Assembly (NCBI GenBank): GCA_028293625.1
Contig: JAQGOL010000034.1
Coordinates: 186,001 to 250,000, forward strand
Length of the DNA stretch: 64,000 nucleotides
Reading direction: 5' to 3'
DNA from: Chthoniobacteraceae bacterium
GTDB lineage: Bacteria; Verrucomicrobiota; Verrucomicrobiia; Chthoniobacterales; Chthoniobacteraceae
Part shown: one piece after another, positions 22,776 through 32,183 of the stretch
How positions within the stretch are numbered: the stretch's first letter is position 1
Layout: each line of letters starts with the position of its first letter
Notes under the pieces: model-generated
Database searches by the model: none
What the model saw: only the letters and a program-made list of their open reading frames with translations
Told to the model about the DNA's origin: nothing
Translations under genes and position numbers: made by a program

Positions 22776-25700
22776 TCATTCAACGACAATGACGAGCGCC
22801 TGACCTACTTCAACGATTGAACCTGGCCGGCAAAGAATGCTTGTTACCTTGCCGCTGACAGGCGCGGTGATTGCAGTCTCCATCTTCATCGATTCAAGAA
22901 TAAGCAGTTTGTCGCCTTCGCTCACCTGATCGCCTTCCTTTACCAATACCTGCCAGACGCTCCCCGGCAAATGCGCGCTTACGAGCAAACCACCGGCGGG
23001 CAATTCAACCGCCGGCGACTCGATTGCAGCGAGCTCCGGCTCGGCGGATGACACAAGCTGGCCCGCCGCCGCCCAGCGATCCCGCTCCTCGGAGAAAGCG
23101 GTGCGTTGCGTCGCGCGAAACGCATCGATGGGAGCGGCGTTCTGATCGAGGAAACACTGGTAATCCTTGAGCTTGAAAGTTTGCTCCTCCACGCGGATCT
23201 GAAACTTGCCTGTTAGAAAATCCTTACGATGCTGGAGCAGTTCCTCCGCCGTGACCGGGTAGAAACGGATTTGGTCAAAGAAGCGAAGCAGCCACGGCTT
23301 GCCTTTTTCAAAATCGCGCGTGTTACGGTGGGTATTCCAAACCTGCACGGTACGGCCGACGAACTGATAGCCGCCCGGTCCTTCCATTCCATAGATGCAC
23401 ATGTAAGCGCCACCGATGCCTACCGCGTTCTCCGGAGTCCAGGTGCGGGCCGGATTATACTTGGTAGTAACCAGCCGATGCCGTGGATCAAGCGGTGTTG
23501 CCACCGGCGCGCCGAGGTAAACGTCGCCGAGGCCAAGAACCAGATAACTGGCGTCAAAAACGATGCGCCGGACTTCCTCCTGGCTTTCAAGGCCGTTGAT
23601 TCGCCGGATAAACTCAAGATTACTCGGGCACCATGGCGCGTCGGCACGGACCGATTGCATGTATTTCTCGATCGCAACTCGAGTTGAAGGGTCGTCCCAG
23701 GAAAGCGGCAGGTGGACAATACGCGAGGGAACTTCGATCTCCTCAAGCGCGGGCAATTCCGATTCCGCGTGAAGAAGTGCTGCCATAAGCTTCTTGATCG
23801 GAAGAACCCGGCAATCGTAATGAATCTGCAGGGAGCGAATGCCCGGAGTAAGGTCGACAATGCCGGGAATGTGGTTTAGTTCAAGCCATTGCATGAGAGC
23901 ATGCACGCGGAACCGAAGCGTTAGATCGAGTACAAGCGGTCCGTATTCGACCAAAAGATACTTATCCCCTGCCCTGCGGTAGCAAACGTCCGGATGCCCG
24001 GGCTCAGCGCAAGTGCGGTGCTCGATAGCGCTTTCCTTTGATACTTCAGCCAGTCGCCGTGAGGGAGCTTCAACAAGCGTGGCAATTTCGCGATCCTGGT
24101 CGAGTTCCCGCATGTTAACTTCCGCAATCGACATCGGGCGGAAATGAACAGTGTCGCCGGGCTTGAGCTGGCCTATCTTCCATAGTTCGCTCTGCACAAT
24201 ACACGCCGGACAGACAAAGCCACCCAGACTCGGGCCGTCGGGTCCAAGGATGATCGGCATATCGCCCGTAAAATCAATCGTCCCGATCGCATATGCGTTG
24301 TCGTGAATATTGGACGGATGCAGCCCCGCCTCGCCCCCATCGGCACGCGCCCATTGCGGCCTGGGCCCGATCAGCCGGACACCGGTCCGGCTCGAATTAT
24401 AATGGATCTTCCAATCCGCGGAAAAAAGCGTCGCGATGTCTTCGTCGGTAAAAAAATCGGGCGCGCCATGCGGTCCATAGAGGACGCCGATTTCCCAGGC
24501 ATTGGTGTAAACGGGAACAAGGTCCTGGGGCAGCGTAAGTTCAGCGGCCGAGCTCGTTTCGGCGAGGTTGCCAAGATGCAGCACATCCCCTATTCGAAGC
24601 GCGCGTCCGGCATGGCCACCAAAATTGCCGAGCGTAAAGGTGCTGCTGCTACCGAGGTAAGCCGGCACCTGTAGTCCGCCGGCGATTGCCAGATAAGCAC
24701 GGCAACCGGGACCGGAAACCGCGCGCATCCGCAGCACGTCGCCGGCTTTGACTGCAATGGAACACCAGCGCCGCACCCGAACGCCATTGAGTTCGGCCTG
24801 CAAATCCGCGCCGGTGATCGCAATCCGGGCCGCCGTATTAAAGCGGAGCGTTGGGCCGGTCATCATGATCTCCAAGCCCGCCGCGGACTCCGGATTGCAT
24901 AAAAGCCGGTTGGCGTATCGAAAAGCCAGATGATCCATTGGTCCCGAAGGCGGCACACCGATGGCCCAGAAACCGGTGCGGCCGGGATAATCCTGGATGG
25001 TAGTCTGCGTGCCTGCTTCAAGCAGATCAATAGTCCGCGGCAAGTAATCAAAATCGCCGAGGTAACGGGTGGTTACCTGGCCTGCGGCAAACGTCGGTGA
25101 AGCAATTACCTGACGCAGATAGACAAGATTGGATTCAATTCCGCCAAAAACAGTTTGATTTAAGGCGGCGCTCATCCGGGCAAGCGCGGCCCGCCGGCTC
25201 TCGGCGTGAACAATGATCTTGGCTAGCATCGGATCATAGAAAGGCGTCACCTCGCTGCCGGCCGCAACCCACGTCTCACTGCGTGTCCCGGGATCAAAAG
25301 AGACTTCGCTCAGAACGCCGCAGCTTGGCTGAAAACCTTTGTGCGGATCCTCGGCGTAAATACGGACCTGAATGGAATGGCCTCGTGGATGATGAACATA
25401 GTCATCAAGGAAACTGGCGTCGCCGGCTGCAAGGCGCACCATCCACTCGACCAAGTCAACGCCGGTTACTTCCTCAGTGACGCCATGTTCCACCTGAAGC
25501 CGCGTATTAACCTCAAGAAAATAAAACTCGCCGCTGGCTGCATCAAAAACAAACTCCACGGTGCCGGCCGACCGGTAGTTGACGGCGCGGCCGAGTTTTA
25601 CCGCGGCGTCGCAGAGGAGGCTGCGTTGCGCATCGCTAAGTCCCGGCGCCGGCGTCTCCTCAATGACTTTTTGATTGCGGCGCTGCGCGGAACAATCGCG

Positions 25701-26375
25701 TTCGCCAAGTGACACGACGCGTCCTGCGCCATCGCCAAAGATCTGCACTTCGATGTGCCGCGCCTGGGCGACGAACTTTTCGAGAAAAATGCCGGAATCT
25801 TTGAAGTTACTGGCGCCAAGCCGCTTTACCGACTCGAATGCTTCCTCCAATTGCTCCGCGCTCCAACAAACGCGCATCCCGATTCCGCCGCCACCAGCCG
25901 TGCTCTTCAGCATAACGGGAAAACCGATCCGCGCCGCCTCGCGCTCCGCCTCGCCGCTATCGGCCAGCAGGCCGCTTCCCGGCAACAACGGCACACCATG
26001 ATGCCGGGCCAGCTCCCGGGCCGTATGCTTTAATCCAAACGCGCGCATCTGATCCGGAGTCGGCCCGACGAATGCAAGCCCGGCGCGCTCACACGCTTCG
26101 GCGAACTCGGCATTTTCGCTTAGGAATCCGTATCCGGGATGGATGGCCTGCGCGCCGGTTAACCTGGCGGCCGCAAGAATCCGGTCGATTTGCAAATAAC
26201 TCTCGGCAACCGGCGCGGGCCCAAGAAGAACCGATTCATCGGCGTCGGTCACATGAAGCGAATTGGCGTCGGCCTCGGAATAGACAGCCACAGCGCCAAC
26301 CCCAAGCCGTTTTAAAGTGCGCGTGATCCGGCGTGAAATGACGCCGCGATTGGCGATAAGTAGTTTGGAAAACAT
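22776..26375 (-). CDS. Urea/guanidine carboxylase (biotin-dependent)
   Basis: A 1199-residue biotin-dependent carboxylase. In order it has the biotin carboxylase and ATP-grasp part ([46 protein letters not shown]), a KipA/AHS2 half ([20 protein letters not shown]), a KipI/AHS1 half ([16 protein letters not shown]), and a C-terminal biotinyl domain with the acceptor lysine in LESMKMETA. The ATG at 26375 matches family N-termini. Proteins of this architecture that travel with DUF1989 partners are now known to prefer guanidine over urea, giving carboxyguanidine. I infer that activity here from context; the distinguishing active-site residue was not mapped. The gene begins two bases after the stop of the DUF1989 gene. 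No allophanate hydrolase is fused or adjacent. Confidence 0.9.
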
Positions 26376-26377
26376 GG

Positions 26378-27019
26378 CTATTTCCAGATCAGCAGGCGCA
26401 CCGGCGTTGGATTGTATCCATTGCACGGGTTATTCAATTGGGGACAATTGGAAATCAGGCAGATGACATCCATCTCGGCGCGCAACTCGACATAGCGGCC
26501 TCGCGCGGAAATTCCGTCCTCGAACGTCAACCTGCCCTCCGGCGTAACAGGCACATTCATGAAGAAGTTGATGTTACAGGTGATATCTTCCTTGGCCCAC
26601 CCTTCGCCCTTCTCTTGGATGGCTTGCATGAAGCTGTCGCGGCATGCATGCATGTGGCGTTTGCTGGTTGAATAGCGCACCATGTTGCTTTCACAGGAGC
26701 AGGCGCCACCAAGGGTGTCATGCCGGCCGCAAGTATCGGCGGTGATGGTTAGCAAGAGATTGTCCTCGCTTGAAATAAGGCGGGTGCCGGCGGTCAGGTA
26801 AATATTTCCCTGGCCTCGGATTGTATCCTGAGCGCTATAACGATCAGTGCGGTCATGGGCATTATAGAAGAGCGTGTCAACGGCCTGGTTCCCTTCCATA
26901 TCAATAATCCGGAAGGTTTGTCCTTGTTCGATCAAATGCATCCAGGACTCGCCTGCGGGCAGGATGCAATCATAGATGGCGTGCGCGGGGTCCAATGCGC
27001 TTTCAGTTAGAACACTCAT
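26378..27019 (-). CDS. Carboxyguanidine deiminase-type subunit (DUF1989, urea carboxylase-associated protein)
   Basis: One of two DUF1989 proteins of the locus (213 residues). It shares with its neighbour the motif D-T-C-G-x-H-D-x-L-G-G followed by Cys (residues near 95-107), and [29 protein letters not shown] and [13 protein letters not shown]. Pairs of such proteins, formerly called urea carboxylase-associated proteins 1 and 2, were shown to form a carboxyguanidine deiminase that yields allophanate and ammonia. Its start overlaps the stop of the other DUF1989 gene by four bases. Which of the two subunit types it is cannot be settled by eye. Confidence 0.88.
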
Positions 27020-27741
27020 AAAAAGTAACGCTCGGTCATCAGGAAGCCGCGTTCATTCTCAGGCCGCGATGCGCGGCATAGATCATCGGGACCCGGAGTC
27101 GGCGACGAGCGGACAATGAGATGGGCCGGTTTTGGCGAGTAGGACGGCGAAGGATCAAGCGGGTGCGGACAAGTATTAAGGACGATCAACGTATTCATTT
27201 CCGCGCGCAGATCGACAAATGCGCCGGGCGCACAATGGTCTTTGTGAAAGGTCATTGCGCCGGAATCGTCAACGGTCACCTTGCTGAAAAAGTTCACATT
27301 AGGCACCAGGTCGGCCTTCCCCATTCCATATTTGCCTAGCTCCACGAGGAAGCTGTCGTGCCCGTTCTTAAAACAGTCATTTCGGGCGGATTGATAAGTC
27401 AGTTCGCCATACTTTGTTCTGATGATCCGCGCGTTGGAACAGCCGCCGATCGGGTCATGCCATCCGCAGCTATCCTCGGTGATCGAGGCAAGCACGCGCC
27501 CCATGTCCGAGTAGAGGCAGAACCCCTTGGTCAGCTTCGCTGTATGCTGCGCCTTGAGCGTATCGGGCATGTTATAACGTTCAGAGCGCAACTCGAAGTT
27601 ATAGAAGAGCGCAGAGACATTCGCGCCGCCTTCCACGTCGGTAATACGCAAGGTTGTGCCGCGCTTAAGAACGTGCGACCAGTTTGAGGCGGGCGGCACA
27701 GTTTCCTCAAAGCGAATCAGTGTCGGATCAATGGAATGCAT
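27016..27741 (-). CDS. Second carboxyguanidine deiminase-type subunit (DUF1989)
   Basis: The longer DUF1989 partner (241 residues), with the matching motif [12 protein letters not shown], plus [17 protein letters not shown] and [22 protein letters not shown]-terminal extension of about 30 residues follows [12 protein letters not shown]. It overlaps the next gene by four bases and begins 17 bases after the stop of the NikR-like gene, so regulator, both DUF1989 proteins and carboxylase form one minus-strand operon. It is expected to act as a hetero-oligomer with the 213-residue protein in the cytoplasm. Confidence 0.88.
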
Positions 27742-27758: not shown

Positions 27759-28199
27759 TTAATAGATCGGCGGCAAAATGGTGGAAGTTACATTAAGGTA
27801 ACCGTGCTTGACCCCTTTACAGGTGATCAGCTCGTCCGCGATCCGCTTCAGCCGGATGCCCGGCCCCTGGACAAGCAATACTTCGAGGCTGTGATGGTTC
27901 TCCAAATGCACATGCTGCGAGGAGATGATTTCCTTTAGAAACTTATGCTGGATCTTCATCAGACGGCTCTGAAGGCCGCTCTTGGAATGATCAAATATAA
28001 GCGTGATTGTCCCGGCCATCACCTGGCGCCCAAGCTGCTGTTGATGCTCAACGAGTTGTTCGCTGATCATTTTTGAAATCGCTTCCGAACGGCTGGCATG
28101 GCCGCGTGCCACCACCATCGCGTCAAGCTGATCGCAGAGCGGTGCCGGCAGCGAAATGCTGATGCGGCTTGCAGTCGATTTTTTTTGTGTAGATGACAT
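27759..28199 (-). CDS. NikR-like ribbon-helix-helix regulator with altered metal site
   Basis: A 146-residue repressor of NikR architecture: a ribbon-helix-helix DNA-binding domain (SRISISLPAPLCDQLDAM, GHASRSEAISKMISEQL, residues 11-50) and an ACT-like ligand domain (residues 60-140). Aligning with Escherichia coli NikR, His85, His96 and His98 match the nickel ligands His76, His87 and His89, but the cysteine ligand (Cys95) is replaced by Ser104 in ENHHSLEVLL. It may therefore sense another metal or the pathway substrate. The ATG at 28199 is chosen by family fit. The operator-like palindrome lies 52-85 bases upstream. It is first in the carboxylase operon. Confidence 0.88.
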   Translation of the reverse strand: MSSTQKKSTASRISISLPAPLCDQLDAMVVARGHASRSEAISKMISEQLVEHQQQLGRQVMAGTITLIFDHSKSGLQSRLMKIQHKFLKEIISSQHVHLENHHSLEVLLVQGPGIRLKRIADELITCKGVKHGYLNVTSTILPPIY

Positions 28200-28566
28200 T
28201 GAGTGATGCGGTTTCCAAGCAGCTACCGTGCAAACCCGCATGCTGTCGAGGAAGTATTACTCTTTTCTGGTTTCGTAATACTTCAGCAGCGGCTGGGAGT
28301 GGAAATTCGCCCATTAGGGCTGCGGCATTTTGCGCATCGTGTGAAGAATCGAGCGAATCGTACTACGCCAAATGAGGCGTGAATGTGCCGGTTTTGGCGG
28401 CAAATGGGATATTGCGATCTGATTTTGAAGAAGTTTGGCGGCGCCGGCCTCGGTGGCATGCGCTTGGCTAATGGAGCTGCGGTCGATCGTTTTGCACCGG
28501 AACTTGATTCCGCTTTTGCCCCTTTTTAAAAGCGAAGAGAAGCCGCCGCGCTCCAAAAGACTTCCG
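28200..28566. other. Divergent regulatory region of the carboxylase and transporter operons
   Basis: This region separates two divergent operons. It contains the NikR-like operator (28251-28284) and, just before the amidotransferase gene, an inverted repeat CGCTTTT / AAAAGCG (28511-28517 and 28528-28534) that would fold as a hairpin in the leader. A TTGATT-N16-TTAAAA arrangement overlaps it and may be a promoter. I looked for guanidine-I, -II and -III riboswitch signatures and found none. Confidence 0.55.
28251..28284. promoter_or_regulatory. NikR-type operator palindrome
   Basis: GAAGTATTAC (28251-28260) and GTAATACTTC (28275-28284) form a perfect inverted repeat with a 14-base spacer. Written as NikR half-sites this is GTATTA-N16-TAATAC, the same spacing as the Escherichia coli NikR site GTATGA-N16-TCATAC and four of six bases per half-site. 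It lies between the divergent operons, 52 bases from the regulator start, and is the likely target of the NikR-like protein. Confidence 0.8.
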
Positions 28567-29280
28567 ATGAATCGCATTCTATACATTCAACACGGCCCGT
28601 TTGACGGTCCAGGACTCCTATCGCAGACGATGGGCGAGTGCGGGGTCGAACTGGAAACCGTGCATCTCTGGCGCGGCGAAAACCTGCCATCTACCCTTGA
28701 TCGATTTGACGGATTGGCCGTGGGCGGCGGCGAAATGAGCGCCTATGAGACCGAGCGCTACCCGTTTTTAAAAGAAGAGCTTACGCTGATCCAGGCGGCA
28801 CGAAGCGCGGATAAGCCTATATTGGGCATTTGCCTCGGTGCGCAATTGATGGCCGCGGCTTTTGGAGGCGCTGTTTTTCCAAACAAGGGAAAAGAGATCG
28901 GGCTTTTTGATCTGAGCTTCACGAGTGCCGCGAATGACGATCCGCTTTGGAAAGGGTTCACGACTGCGTTCGCGCCGGTGCATTGGCATGGCGACACGTT
29001 TTCGCTCCCTCCGGGTGCTGAACTTCTGGCCTCTTCTACGCTGACCCCGAATCAGCTTTTCCATGTCGATCATCGCCATTACGGACTGCAATTTCATCTC
29101 GAAATCGATCGCGTATCGCTTCGCGAAATGATCGCAGCTGATGCCGAGCCGTTGCGTGCCAGCGGAGTCGATCCCGAGGCGTTCCTGCGCGCCGGGGAAT
29201 CGCTCCTACCTTCAGTCGAACCGATCGGCCGCGCGATTTTTGCGCGCTGGGCAACCCTTCTCCACAACTCCATACCATGA
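28567..29280 (+). CDS. Class-I glutamine amidotransferase-like protein
   Basis: A 237-residue protein with a full class-I amidotransferase triad: the nucleophile Cys in GICLGAQLMA (residues about 85-94) and His-x-Glu in GLQFHLEID. The oxyanion-region motif GLAVGGGEMSAYE is also present. It resembles stand-alone GMP synthase-like amidotransferases, which act on gamma-glutamyl compounds or supply ammonia to a partner. The ATG at 28567 begins MNRILYIQHGPFDGPG, a usual N-terminus. Its stop overlaps the transporter binding-protein ATG by four bases, so it is first in the importer operon. Its role in guanidine or urea use is not known. Confidence 0.88.
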   Translation: MNRILYIQHGPFDGPGLLSQTMGECGVELETVHLWRGENLPSTLDRFDGLAVGGGEMSAYETERYPFLKEELTLIQAARSADKPILGICLGAQLMAAAFGGAVFPNKGKEIGLFDLSFTSAANDDPLWKGFTTAFAPVHWHGDTFSLPPGAELLASSTLTPNQLFHVDHRHYGLQFHLEIDRVSLREMIAADAEPLRASGVDPEAFLRAGESLLPSVEPIGRAIFARWATLLHNSIP

Positions 29281-30245
29281 AACTAAAGACCGTTTTAACC
29301 ACCGCGCTTGGACTCGTCCTCGCGGCATCGTTGCAAGCTGAGCCACTCAAGATCGCTTACTCCGATTGGCCGGGTTTTACCTTGCTTGAAGTCGCAAAAC
29401 AAAAAGGTTGGTTTAAGGAAGCAGGAGTCGATGTGGACCTGCTCTGGTTTGATTACCTGCCATCCCTGGATGCTTTTGCCGCGGGGAAAGTAGACTCGGT
29501 AGTCTGTGTTCATACCGATGCACTGGTTTCGGGGGCCAACGGAGCCAAGAGTAAAATCATCGCGCCGATTGATTTCAGCGAAGGCAACGACATGATCATC
29601 GGCAAGCCCGGGATTGAATCGATCAAGGATCTCAAAGGCCAGCAGCTTGGATTGGAGCTGACCCTGGTTGAGCATTTGCTTTTGCTAAAGGCGCTGGAAG
29701 CAAACGGCATGAAGATTTCGGACGTCAAATTGGTAAACACCGCAACGAATGAAACCCCGCAGACTCTCGCGTCCGGCAAGGTAGCCGCCATCGGAGCGTG
29801 GTATCCGGTTTCGGGTCAGGCTCTCAAACAAGTAGCCGGCTCAAAGGCACTCTTCAGCAGTGCTGACGCCAAAGGGCTCATCTATGATGTGATCGCAGTC
29901 AACCCGACCAGCTTCGCCAAACACAAGGAGGAGTGGACCAAGATCGTCCAGATTTACTATAAGTGCGTCGATTACGTGAAAGATCCGGCGACTCAGGCGG
30001 ACGCCATCAAGATCATGGCGGCGAAGGTCGGCGCGAATGAAGCGGACTACGCTAAAAACATCCCCGGCACGCATTTCCTAACATTGGCTGAGGCGAAGGA
30101 TGTGCTTAAGAAAGGCGACGGACTCGACTCGCTGTATGGTTCAATGGCGATTGGCAACAAATTCAACGTCACGAACAAGGTCTACAAGGTTTCCCAGAAA
30201 CCGGAGTCGTATATCGTCCCAAGCGTCGTGCTCGGGTTGAAGTAA
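29277..30245 (+). CDS. ABC transporter substrate-binding protein (NMT1/SsuA-like)
   Basis: A periplasmic solute receptor with a signal peptide (VLTTALGLVLAASLQA) and the family pattern IAYSDWPGFTLLEVAKQKGWF, DAFAAGKVDSVVC and SFAKHKEEWTKIVQIYYK. It belongs to the NitT/TauT-type family (taurine, nitrate, thiamine precursor). Proteins annotated 'urea carboxylase-related ABC transporter' accompany the carboxylase in many genomes; the ligand is therefore probably guanidine or a related cation, an inference from context. The start overlaps the amidotransferase stop and the stop overlaps the permease ATG (TAATG). Confidence 0.9.
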   Translation: MKLKTVLTTALGLVLAASLQAEPLKIAYSDWPGFTLLEVAKQKGWFKEAGVDVDLLWFDYLPSLDAFAAGKVDSVVCVHTDALVSGANGAKSKIIAPIDFSEGNDMIIGKPGIESIKDLKGQQLGLELTLVEHLLLLKALEANGMKISDVKLVNTATNETPQTLASGKVAAIGAWYPVSGQALKQVAGSKALFSSADAKGLIYDVIAVNPTSFAKHKEEWTKIVQIYYKCVDYVKDPATQADAIKIMAAKVGANEADYAKNIPGTHFLTLAEAKDVLKKGDGLDSLYGSMAIGNKFNVTNKVYKVSQKPESYIVPSVVLGLK

Positions 30246-31261
30246 TGGCACACCGCGACTGGCTGGGACTGAAGATGGAGCTGCCGCGGGCGAGGCGCCT
30301 TCAGCTAACCTTGCTGTCGTTTTTGTTGCCGCTCCTGATCTGGTCGGCCATCAGCTATATCCCGTGGTTATGGCATCCGTCGATCCGGGTTACTGCCACG
30401 GGCGATGTCGACTATTTCACCGAGGAGATGGAGCTCCCCAGGGCCGACTTTGAAAGTGAAGCAGCCAAAATGCGCGCCCAGGGGCTCGCCGTGCCGGAAG
30501 GTTACCGGGTCAACCCGCTCTATCTTCCCGCCCCGCATCAGGTAGCCCGCGCTTTTTATACAGGATTTACAACCGAACCGCGGCTGCCCGGGGAACCGTG
30601 GTTGCATGAAAGCCTTGGCCATAGCATTCGGACGATTTTCTGGGGCTTTTTCATCTCATCGATCTTCGGCCTTCCATTGGGAATCCTTTGCGGCACCTAT
30701 CGCTTCTTTTCCCGGCTGCAGGAGCCGTTCATCGAATTTTTCCGATACCTGCCGGCGCCGGCTTTCGGAGCGTTGGCAGTCGCCGTGCTGGGGATTGATG
30801 ATGGCCCAAAAATTGCCATCATCTTTATAGGGACATTTTTCCAACAGGTTCTGGTGATCTCCAATACGGTGCGCAAGGTAGATCCCGCGTTGATTGAAGC
30901 CTCGCAGACCCTCGGCGCCAAAGGATGGAACCTCGTGCGGCGCGTGATCATCCCGGCCTCCATCACCGATGTTTATAACGACATGCGCATTTTGCTCGGC
31001 TGGGCGTGGACTTACCTGATCGTGGCGGAGGTCGTCGGCACAATGTCCGGGATTACTTATTCCATCAACCAACAGGCACGGTATCGAAACTTTGATAACG
31101 TCTATGCGGAGATCATGATGATCGGCATCATTGGATTTTCCTCGGATCTCTTTCTTGCATGGATCGGGCGGCTGATTTTTCCGTGGAAACGCACCGCGCG
31201 GACCGCTTCACCATCAGGAGCTTCAAAACCAACACTCGCCGCGGCCGCCGTTCGAGCCTAA
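30245..31261 (+). CDS. ABC transporter permease (NitT/TauT-like)
   Basis: A 338-residue inner-membrane permease. The BPD_transp_1 domain contains [20 protein letters not shown], the coupling EAA loop ([20 protein letters not shown]) and later helices. Between the first helix ([15 protein letters not shown]) and the core domain lies an extra periplasmic segment of about 75 residues ([20 protein letters not shown] and following), as is known for the urea carboxylase-linked permeases. It is translationally coupled to the binding protein, and the ATPase gene follows after 25 bases. Confidence 0.93.
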
Positions 31262-31286: not shown

Positions 31287-32183
31287 ATGCCGACTCCCCT
31301 CGATTCACTTCCCGATTACCGCAAACTTGCCCGGGAAGTGAAAGCGCGTTTTGAGCGGATCCGCCAACGCCCGGTGATCCTGAGTGTGCGCAATCTTGAA
31401 AAGAGCTTTGGGGCGGAAATGCACACGGCGCTCGATCATGTCTCCCTGGAAATCCATCGACGCGAGTTTATCTGCGTAATCGGCCCCTCCGGATGCGGGA
31501 AATCAACCCTGATCCGGATTATTGCCGGACTGGACCAGGCAACGAGTGGCGAGGTGTTGCTCGATGGAAAAGCCGTCACCGGCCCCGGCCCGGATCGCGG
31601 AATGGTGTTTCAGGGTTACACGCTCTTCCCGTGGCGCACCGTCAAAGCCAACGTCATGTTCGGGCTCGAAATGCGAGGCAAAGACAAGTCGACCGCGGAG
31701 ATCGAAGCGCGGCAGTGGCTCGACATGGTCGGGCTGGGCAAATTTGAGAACTCGTATCCGCACGAGCTTTCCGGAGGAATGAAACAGCGGGTGGCTATTG
31801 CGCGGGCCCTGGCCAATGAACCGCGGATCCTGATCATGGACGAGCCGTTTGCGGCGCTTGATGCCCAGACCCGATGCCAGATGCAAAACTACCTTTTGCA
31901 AATCTGGCGCAAGGTCGACGTGACCATCCTTTTTATCACGCACGACCTGGAGGAAGCCGCTTACCTTTCCGATCGCATCCTTGTGATGGGCGCCAATCCC
32001 GGACGCGTCGTGGAGTTCATTGACAACCCGGTGCCGCGTCCCCGCAACGTGGCGCAGTTTGTCAGCCCGGAATTTCTGGCGTTAAAATTGCGGCTCGAGG
32101 AGCTGATCCATCCGCCGATGGAAATTGAGGAGGAACGTTTGCCGATGGTAAAACTGACCAACGCCGGTGACGACGTGGAATAA
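31287..32183 (+). CDS. ABC transporter ATP-binding protein (NitT/TauT-like)
   Basis: The ATPase of the importer, with Walker [11 protein letters not shown]-loop [17 protein letters not shown], signature [16 protein letters not shown], Walker [15 protein letters not shown] and switch histidine in FITHDLEEA. An N-terminal extension of about 40 residues ([19 protein letters not shown]) precedes the nucleotide-binding fold. It ends 27 bases before the convergent FabZ-like gene and closes the plus-strand operon (amidotransferase, binding protein, permease, ATPase). Confidence 0.95.

Follow-up and report, generated by a model that had tools for sequence, protein, structure and literature searches.

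The nickel ligands of Escherichia coli NikR are His87, His89 and Cys95, together with His76 of the neighbouring subunit, and its DNA target is GTATGA-N16-TCATAC (PMC7055735). For guanidine, no protein sensor is known according to a 2025 review, and guanidine sensing has so far been found for RNA switches only. Guanidine carboxylases are marked by an Asp, urea carboxylases by an Asn (PMC12186494), and the urea carboxylase genes of B. cenocepacia are NtrC-dependent (PMC5491218). The NikR fold and the N16 operator are already known; in the literature that we searched, which took in few of the subscription journals, we found no NikR clade without a nickel site tied to guanidine/urea amidolyase genes. 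Here we describe such a clade, starting from a window of 64 kb (the term denotes the whole stretch of DNA that was analysed) in which a NikR-like gene lies next to a palindrome. We consider it probable that the NikR-family protein encoded next to this palindrome uses it as its operator and acts, independently of nickel, as a local regulator of how guanidine is imported and broken down.

The guanidine locus and its candidate operators

The locus contains the following features, given with their positions in the window:

22776..26426, minus strand: urea/guanidine carboxylase, biotin-dependent (TIGR02712, 1884 bits; Asp718, guanidine type)
26378..27019, minus strand: UAAP2 / DUF1989, second subunit (TIGR03424, 336 bits, cut-off 285)
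27016..27741, minus strand: UAAP1 / DUF1989, carboxyguanidine deiminase-type subunit (TIGR03425, 340 bits, cut-off 206)
27759..28199, minus strand: NikR-family regulator (Pfam RHH_1 and NikR_C); likely start ATG at 28199, 28241 also possible
28218..28233, minus strand: sigma-54-like element of the NikR-like operon, weak prediction (TTGCACG-GTAG-CTGCT, 9/11)
28251..28284, no strand: operator A (candidate), palindrome GAAGTATTAC-N14-GTAATACTTC, which reads GTATTA-N16-TAATAC at 28254-28281
28339..28366, no strand: operator B (candidate), GTGTGA-N16-TACTAC, 11/12, 85 bp from operator A
28454..28469, plus strand: predicted sigma-54 -24/-12 element of the importer operon (TGGCATG-CGCT-TGGCT, 10/11)
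28567..29280, plus strand: class-I glutamine amidotransferase-like (GATase-like) gene (Pfam GATase; PRK07053-like below cut-off)
29277..30245, plus strand: ABC importer substrate-binding protein, NMT1 type, urea-carboxylase-associated (Pfam NMT1; TIGR03427, SsuA family below cut-off)
30245..31261, plus strand: ABC importer permease (BPD_transp_1)
31287..32183, plus strand: ABC importer ATPase (ABC_tran)

The left operon runs on the minus strand in the order NikR-like gene, UAAP1, UAAP2 and carboxylase, while the right operon is headed by the GATase-like gene, which overlaps the next gene by 4 bases, followed by the genes for the substrate-binding protein, the permease and the ATPase. The sequence-only reading that preceded this analysis had thus described the gene arrangement correctly, with one exception: in the right operon the importer genes come after the GATase-like gene (28567-29280). 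A GATase-like gene in this position was seen in the window only and is absent from the other loci in which a NikR gene is linked to DUF1989/carboxylase genes (termed linked loci in the following).

Both candidate operators are located between the two operons, A being 55 bp upstream of the likely start codon of the NikR-like gene (28199, chosen by comparison with relatives). The palindrome reported in the earlier reading is found on direct inspection at 28251-28284, with the arms GAAGTATTAC (28251-28260) and GTAATACTTC (28275-28284) and a spacer of 14 bases. Its half-sites are indeed separated by exactly the N16 of the E. coli NikR site (PMC7055735), and by sequence comparison it has the form GTATxA-N16-TxATAC of NikR family operators. 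Operator B, overlooked at first, is weaker than A; in three relatives (L033, L035 and L036) the two sites are 87-88 bp apart. As a perfect inverted repeat of 10 bp with a loop of at most 30 is only mildly rare by itself (our estimate for chance occurrences is about 2 per 64 kb and about 0.01 for the intergenic stretch), what counts is spacing, place and conservation. GTATTA-N16-TAATAC matches once in the 64-kb window (expectation from shuffling 0.00) and at 2 places in the whole genome (6.83 Mb); the broader pattern GTRTKA-N16-TMAYAC is found 4 times, and the reversed-pattern control once. No recognisable guanidine gene was present in the ORF lists alongside the three other genomic matches (L192, L193 and L002); we therefore rejected a wider regulon, and the regulon looks local.

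Asp718 of the window carboxylase aligns with Asn1330 of the K. lactis urea amidolyase (alignment to 5i8i), marking it as a guanidine carboxylase, and the guanidine-type Asp occurs in all 46 linked carboxylases read. The window genome contains urease and no allophanate hydrolase above cut-off. Three linked loci (L034, L052 and L087) have no full allophanate hydrolase gene nearby and urease genes in its stead, so that allophanate might decay to urea and urease might act next; Rfam 5_ureB_sRNA matches in these loci coincide with the urease genes and were not accepted as RNA genes. In an Acinetobacter guanidine locus (L065, 12658-14546) we noted a 2OG-Fe(II) oxygenase gene next to a hypothetical gene, resembling the methylguanidine demethylation pair of PMC12508155.

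A NikR clade without the nickel-binding cysteine

Structurally, the window protein is a member of the NikR family. Its N-terminal ribbon-helix-helix and C-terminal NikR_C domains both score above the Pfam cut-offs, and so does the whole protein with the NikR model PRK04460; the C-terminal domain of the AlphaFold model fits that of H. pylori NikR at 0.9 A, and the top Foldseek matches are all NikR (the model was used for the fold only, because its mean pLDDT is 69 and the N-terminal 18 residues are unreliable). The positions R3, T5 and T7, which contact the DNA in E. coli NikR, are retained as R, S/T and S/T. The high-affinity nickel site His76/His87/His89/Cys95, in contrast, is incomplete: the ligands read H-H-H-S, with the equivalents of H76, H87 and H89 present and the Cys lost. 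Residue numbers follow the E. coli NikR sequence; independently of it, the change is seen in the alignment with the closest solved relative, P. horikoshii NikR (phmmer 3.8e-33), whose Cys aligns with a Ser of the window protein.

We searched 388 genomes of Verrucomicrobiota for homologues and obtained matches in 135; together with named relatives and plasmids, 153 NikR loci were classified, 52 of them linked to DUF1989/carboxylase genes and 101 unlinked. Cys95 is present in 95 of the 101 unlinked NikRs and in none of the 52 linked ones, which stem from Verrucomicrobiota, Alpha- and Gammaproteobacteria and carry S, T, V, Y, I, N, R or G in its place; H76 is kept in 18/52 and H89 in 16/52. In a tree with 22 canonical rows, calculated with the ligand columns left out, the linked NikRs form a single clade (support 100/98). 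Judged from the tree, Cys95 was lost once, after which the column drifted and His ligands disappeared repeatedly; the 52 linked loci are therefore not independent. The clade has also gained near-invariant residues, i.e. Gln at E. coli position 102 (51/51), Glu/Asp at position 91 and a C-terminal proline motif.

Of the six unlinked NikRs without Cys95, one (L082) is a broken gene and five are distant proteins. In a larger tree L082 joins the linked clade; it is interrupted by a stop and stands apart from any carboxylase genes, which looks like a loss of the pathway. The five distant NikR-like proteins (L175, L176, L179, L181 and L182) make up another set, found in one family of the phylum, whose nickel ligands are degenerate (e.g. 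D-R-A-S).

Linkage is to guanidine carboxylase genes (52 loci) and not to genes of nickel enzymes; urease genes are near 6 of the 52. Since the Cys ligand is gone from the window protein and from the whole clade, 'NikR-like' does not equal nickel-responsive here, and the regulator probably does not sense nickel. We reject nickel sensing for the clade on the loss of Cys95 (52/52), and less firmly for the window member, which may have residual metal binding because three His ligands are kept. The label 'nickel-responsive NikR' supplied by the family models would mislead for this protein.

Conservation of candidate operators and predicted promoters across loci

Scored with the pairs GTRTKA/TMAYAC, a pattern chosen partly after some of the scored loci had been seen, the promoter regions of the first 46 linked loci contain 45 sites of at least 11/12 with N16 and at most 4 with any other spacing from 4 to 30. 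Perfect sites number 23 with N16 and at most 1 at another spacing; this spacing control is independent of base composition. A site of at least 10/12 occurs in 44 of the 46 loci, across Verrucomicrobiota, Alpha- and Gammaproteobacteria, so that the palindrome recurs in the homologous loci. Within tighter regions of all 52 linked loci we found 44 N16 sites in 32 loci (mean of 2.0 for other spacings); about a third of the loci have no 11/12 site with this stricter choice of pattern and regions. Variant half-sites account for some of these cases, and the truncation of sites near the start codon for others. Promoter regions contain 0.86 sites per kb, against 0.01 per kb in the rest of the loci, an 86-fold difference. 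Unlinked NikR genes show no N16 excess (5 sites; other spacings average 1.3 and reach 6 at most).

Of 45 sampled genomes over the UAAP1 cut-off, 38 contain a linked NikR and the other 7 lack any match to NikR. None of the six NikR-less guanidine loci with a readable importer promoter contains an N16 operator, and all six carry a sigma-54 element at 10/11 or 11/11. A third DUF1989 copy is seen in six of the seven NikR-less loci (L196-L201, all but L195). The proposal of the sequence-only reading that a NikR-type protein would control the locus through this operator is supported by the conservation of the site (44/46) together with its absence from the six NikR-less loci, and we regard the comparative support for the pairing of regulator and operator as strong.

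The pattern TGGCAY-N5-TTGCW was searched on the sense strand ahead of the substrate-binding gene. Elements of at least 10/11 were found 27 times with N5, at most 4 times with another spacing and twice on the antisense strand, a strong enrichment across the family; the two matches in the window itself are imperfect (10/11 and 9/11). The window genome possesses rpoN, and no sigma-70 promoters were found in the intergenic stretch of the window. With the predicted start site set 26 bases from the first T of the element, the first base of the operator falls between -9 and +8 in 20 loci; because it covers the predicted start site there, repression is likely. Relative to the importer start, the two sites of L033, L035 and L036 are near -131 to -143 and -218 to -231; relative to the NikR start, they are near -71 and -159. 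The window shares this layout, its operators being at about -140 (-141 by coordinates) and -226 on the importer side and at -74 and -159 on the NikR side. These positions, upstream of both predicted promoters, are at odds with simple occlusion of the start site in the window's family.

It had further been suggested that a NikR-type protein takes the place of a guanidine riboswitch. This agrees with the window, where Rfam at gathering score gave only a tRNA, and with 15 other verrucomicrobial NikR-linked loci, none of which has a guanidine riboswitch above gathering score; riboswitch control was rejected for these loci. It does not apply everywhere: in Acinetobacter, operator and riboswitch are arranged in series, the operators (L064 1851-1878 and L202 2260-2287) lying 34-35 bp upstream of a guanidine-I riboswitch. 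This neighbourhood also ties the target operon of the regulator to guanidine independently.

Proposed regulation and comparison with known systems

Starting from the sites, the gene co-occurrence, the ligand loss, the guanidine-type carboxylase and the sigma-54 elements, all established by sequence and comparison, we infer DNA binding by the NikR-like protein, a direction of control and a ligand (guanidine or a pathway metabolite). The protein would retain the DNA-reading domain of NikR and read GTRTKA-N16-TMAYAC, while its sensory domain, devoid of the nickel site, would probably bind guanidine or a pathway product. Transcription would proceed from sigma-54 promoters, which would make the guanidine operons dependent on nitrogen limitation. 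In the absence of inducer the regulator would repress, to be released by guanidine or a pathway product. In most relatives it would occupy the start site (occlusion); in the window's family it would bind upstream, blocking or competing with the sigma-54 activator, which is the likelier form there. Going further, we suggest with somewhat less than even confidence that the clade is a dedicated guanidine sensor, in which the nickel domain of NikR was rebuilt for guanidinium or a direct pathway product, yielding a repressor that replaces riboswitches or works in series with them.

Other readings have to be weighed against this. A local non-nickel regulator might respond to nitrogen status in general, through a signal such as glutamine or 2-oxoglutarate, or might have no small-molecule ligand, in keeping with the predicted sigma-54-type promoters, which would tie the operon to nitrogen status, and with the NtrC-dependence in B. 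cenocepacia (PMC5491218). This is possible but doubtful: sigma-54 would already supply the nitrogen input, such a signal needs no dedicated gene within the operon of one pathway, and the genes of the clade occur only with guanidine loci, bar one broken copy. That the protein is still a sensor of nickel or another metal, used to switch nitrogen assimilation from nickel urease to the carboxylase route, which needs no nickel, and back, appears quite improbable given the loss of Cys95 in 52/52 linked NikRs, the retention of H76 in only 18/52 and of H89 in only 16/52, the presence of urease near only 6/52 loci and the guanidine type of the carboxylase, even though the window protein has the equivalents of H76, H87 and H89, its genome has urease and urease genes are near six linked loci.

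For the window's family, activation or DNA shaping at the sigma-54 promoters could be envisaged in place of repression, as in the window, L033, L035 and L036 both divergent sigma-54 elements are preceded by a pair of sites spaced 85-88 bp, in the usual zone of activators. We consider this unlikely, because ribbon-helix-helix proteins lack the AAA+ ATPase required by sigma-54 and the operator covers the predicted start site in 20 relatives. The location of the palindrome within the sigma-54 activator-binding zone would equally suit another factor (NtrC type or other), with the NikR gene adjacent by coincidence; this is hardly credible, as NikR-less loci keep the sigma-54 element and have no N16 site, the half-site spacing matches that of NikR exactly, and the protein retains the residues for DNA contact.

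As a possible guanidine-responsive repressor, the clade offers a specific candidate for a protein guanidine sensor, whose gene, candidate operator and predicted promoter have been located in dozens of genomes from two phyla. If true, a metal sensor can lose its metal, adopt a metabolite and keep its DNA code.

Compared to NikR of E. coli, H. pylori and P. horikoshii, the clade has the ribbon-helix-helix and NikR_C domains and the GTATxA-N16 operator geometry in common, but is without Cys95, has often lost His ligands, accompanies guanidine and not nickel genes, and shows new invariant residues. The riboswitch-controlled guanidine carboxylase operons contain the same importer, DUF1989 pair and carboxylase, often with allophanate hydrolase; the scanned verrucomicrobial loci, however, have a DNA-binding-type protein and a predicted operator without a riboswitch, whereas Acinetobacter has both. 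With the sigma-54/NtrC-controlled urea carboxylase genes of proteobacteria (PMC5491218, PMC12316311) the loci share a predicted sigma-54 promoter upstream of the importer genes, onto which, in the present case, a pathway-specific NikR-family regulator would be layered.
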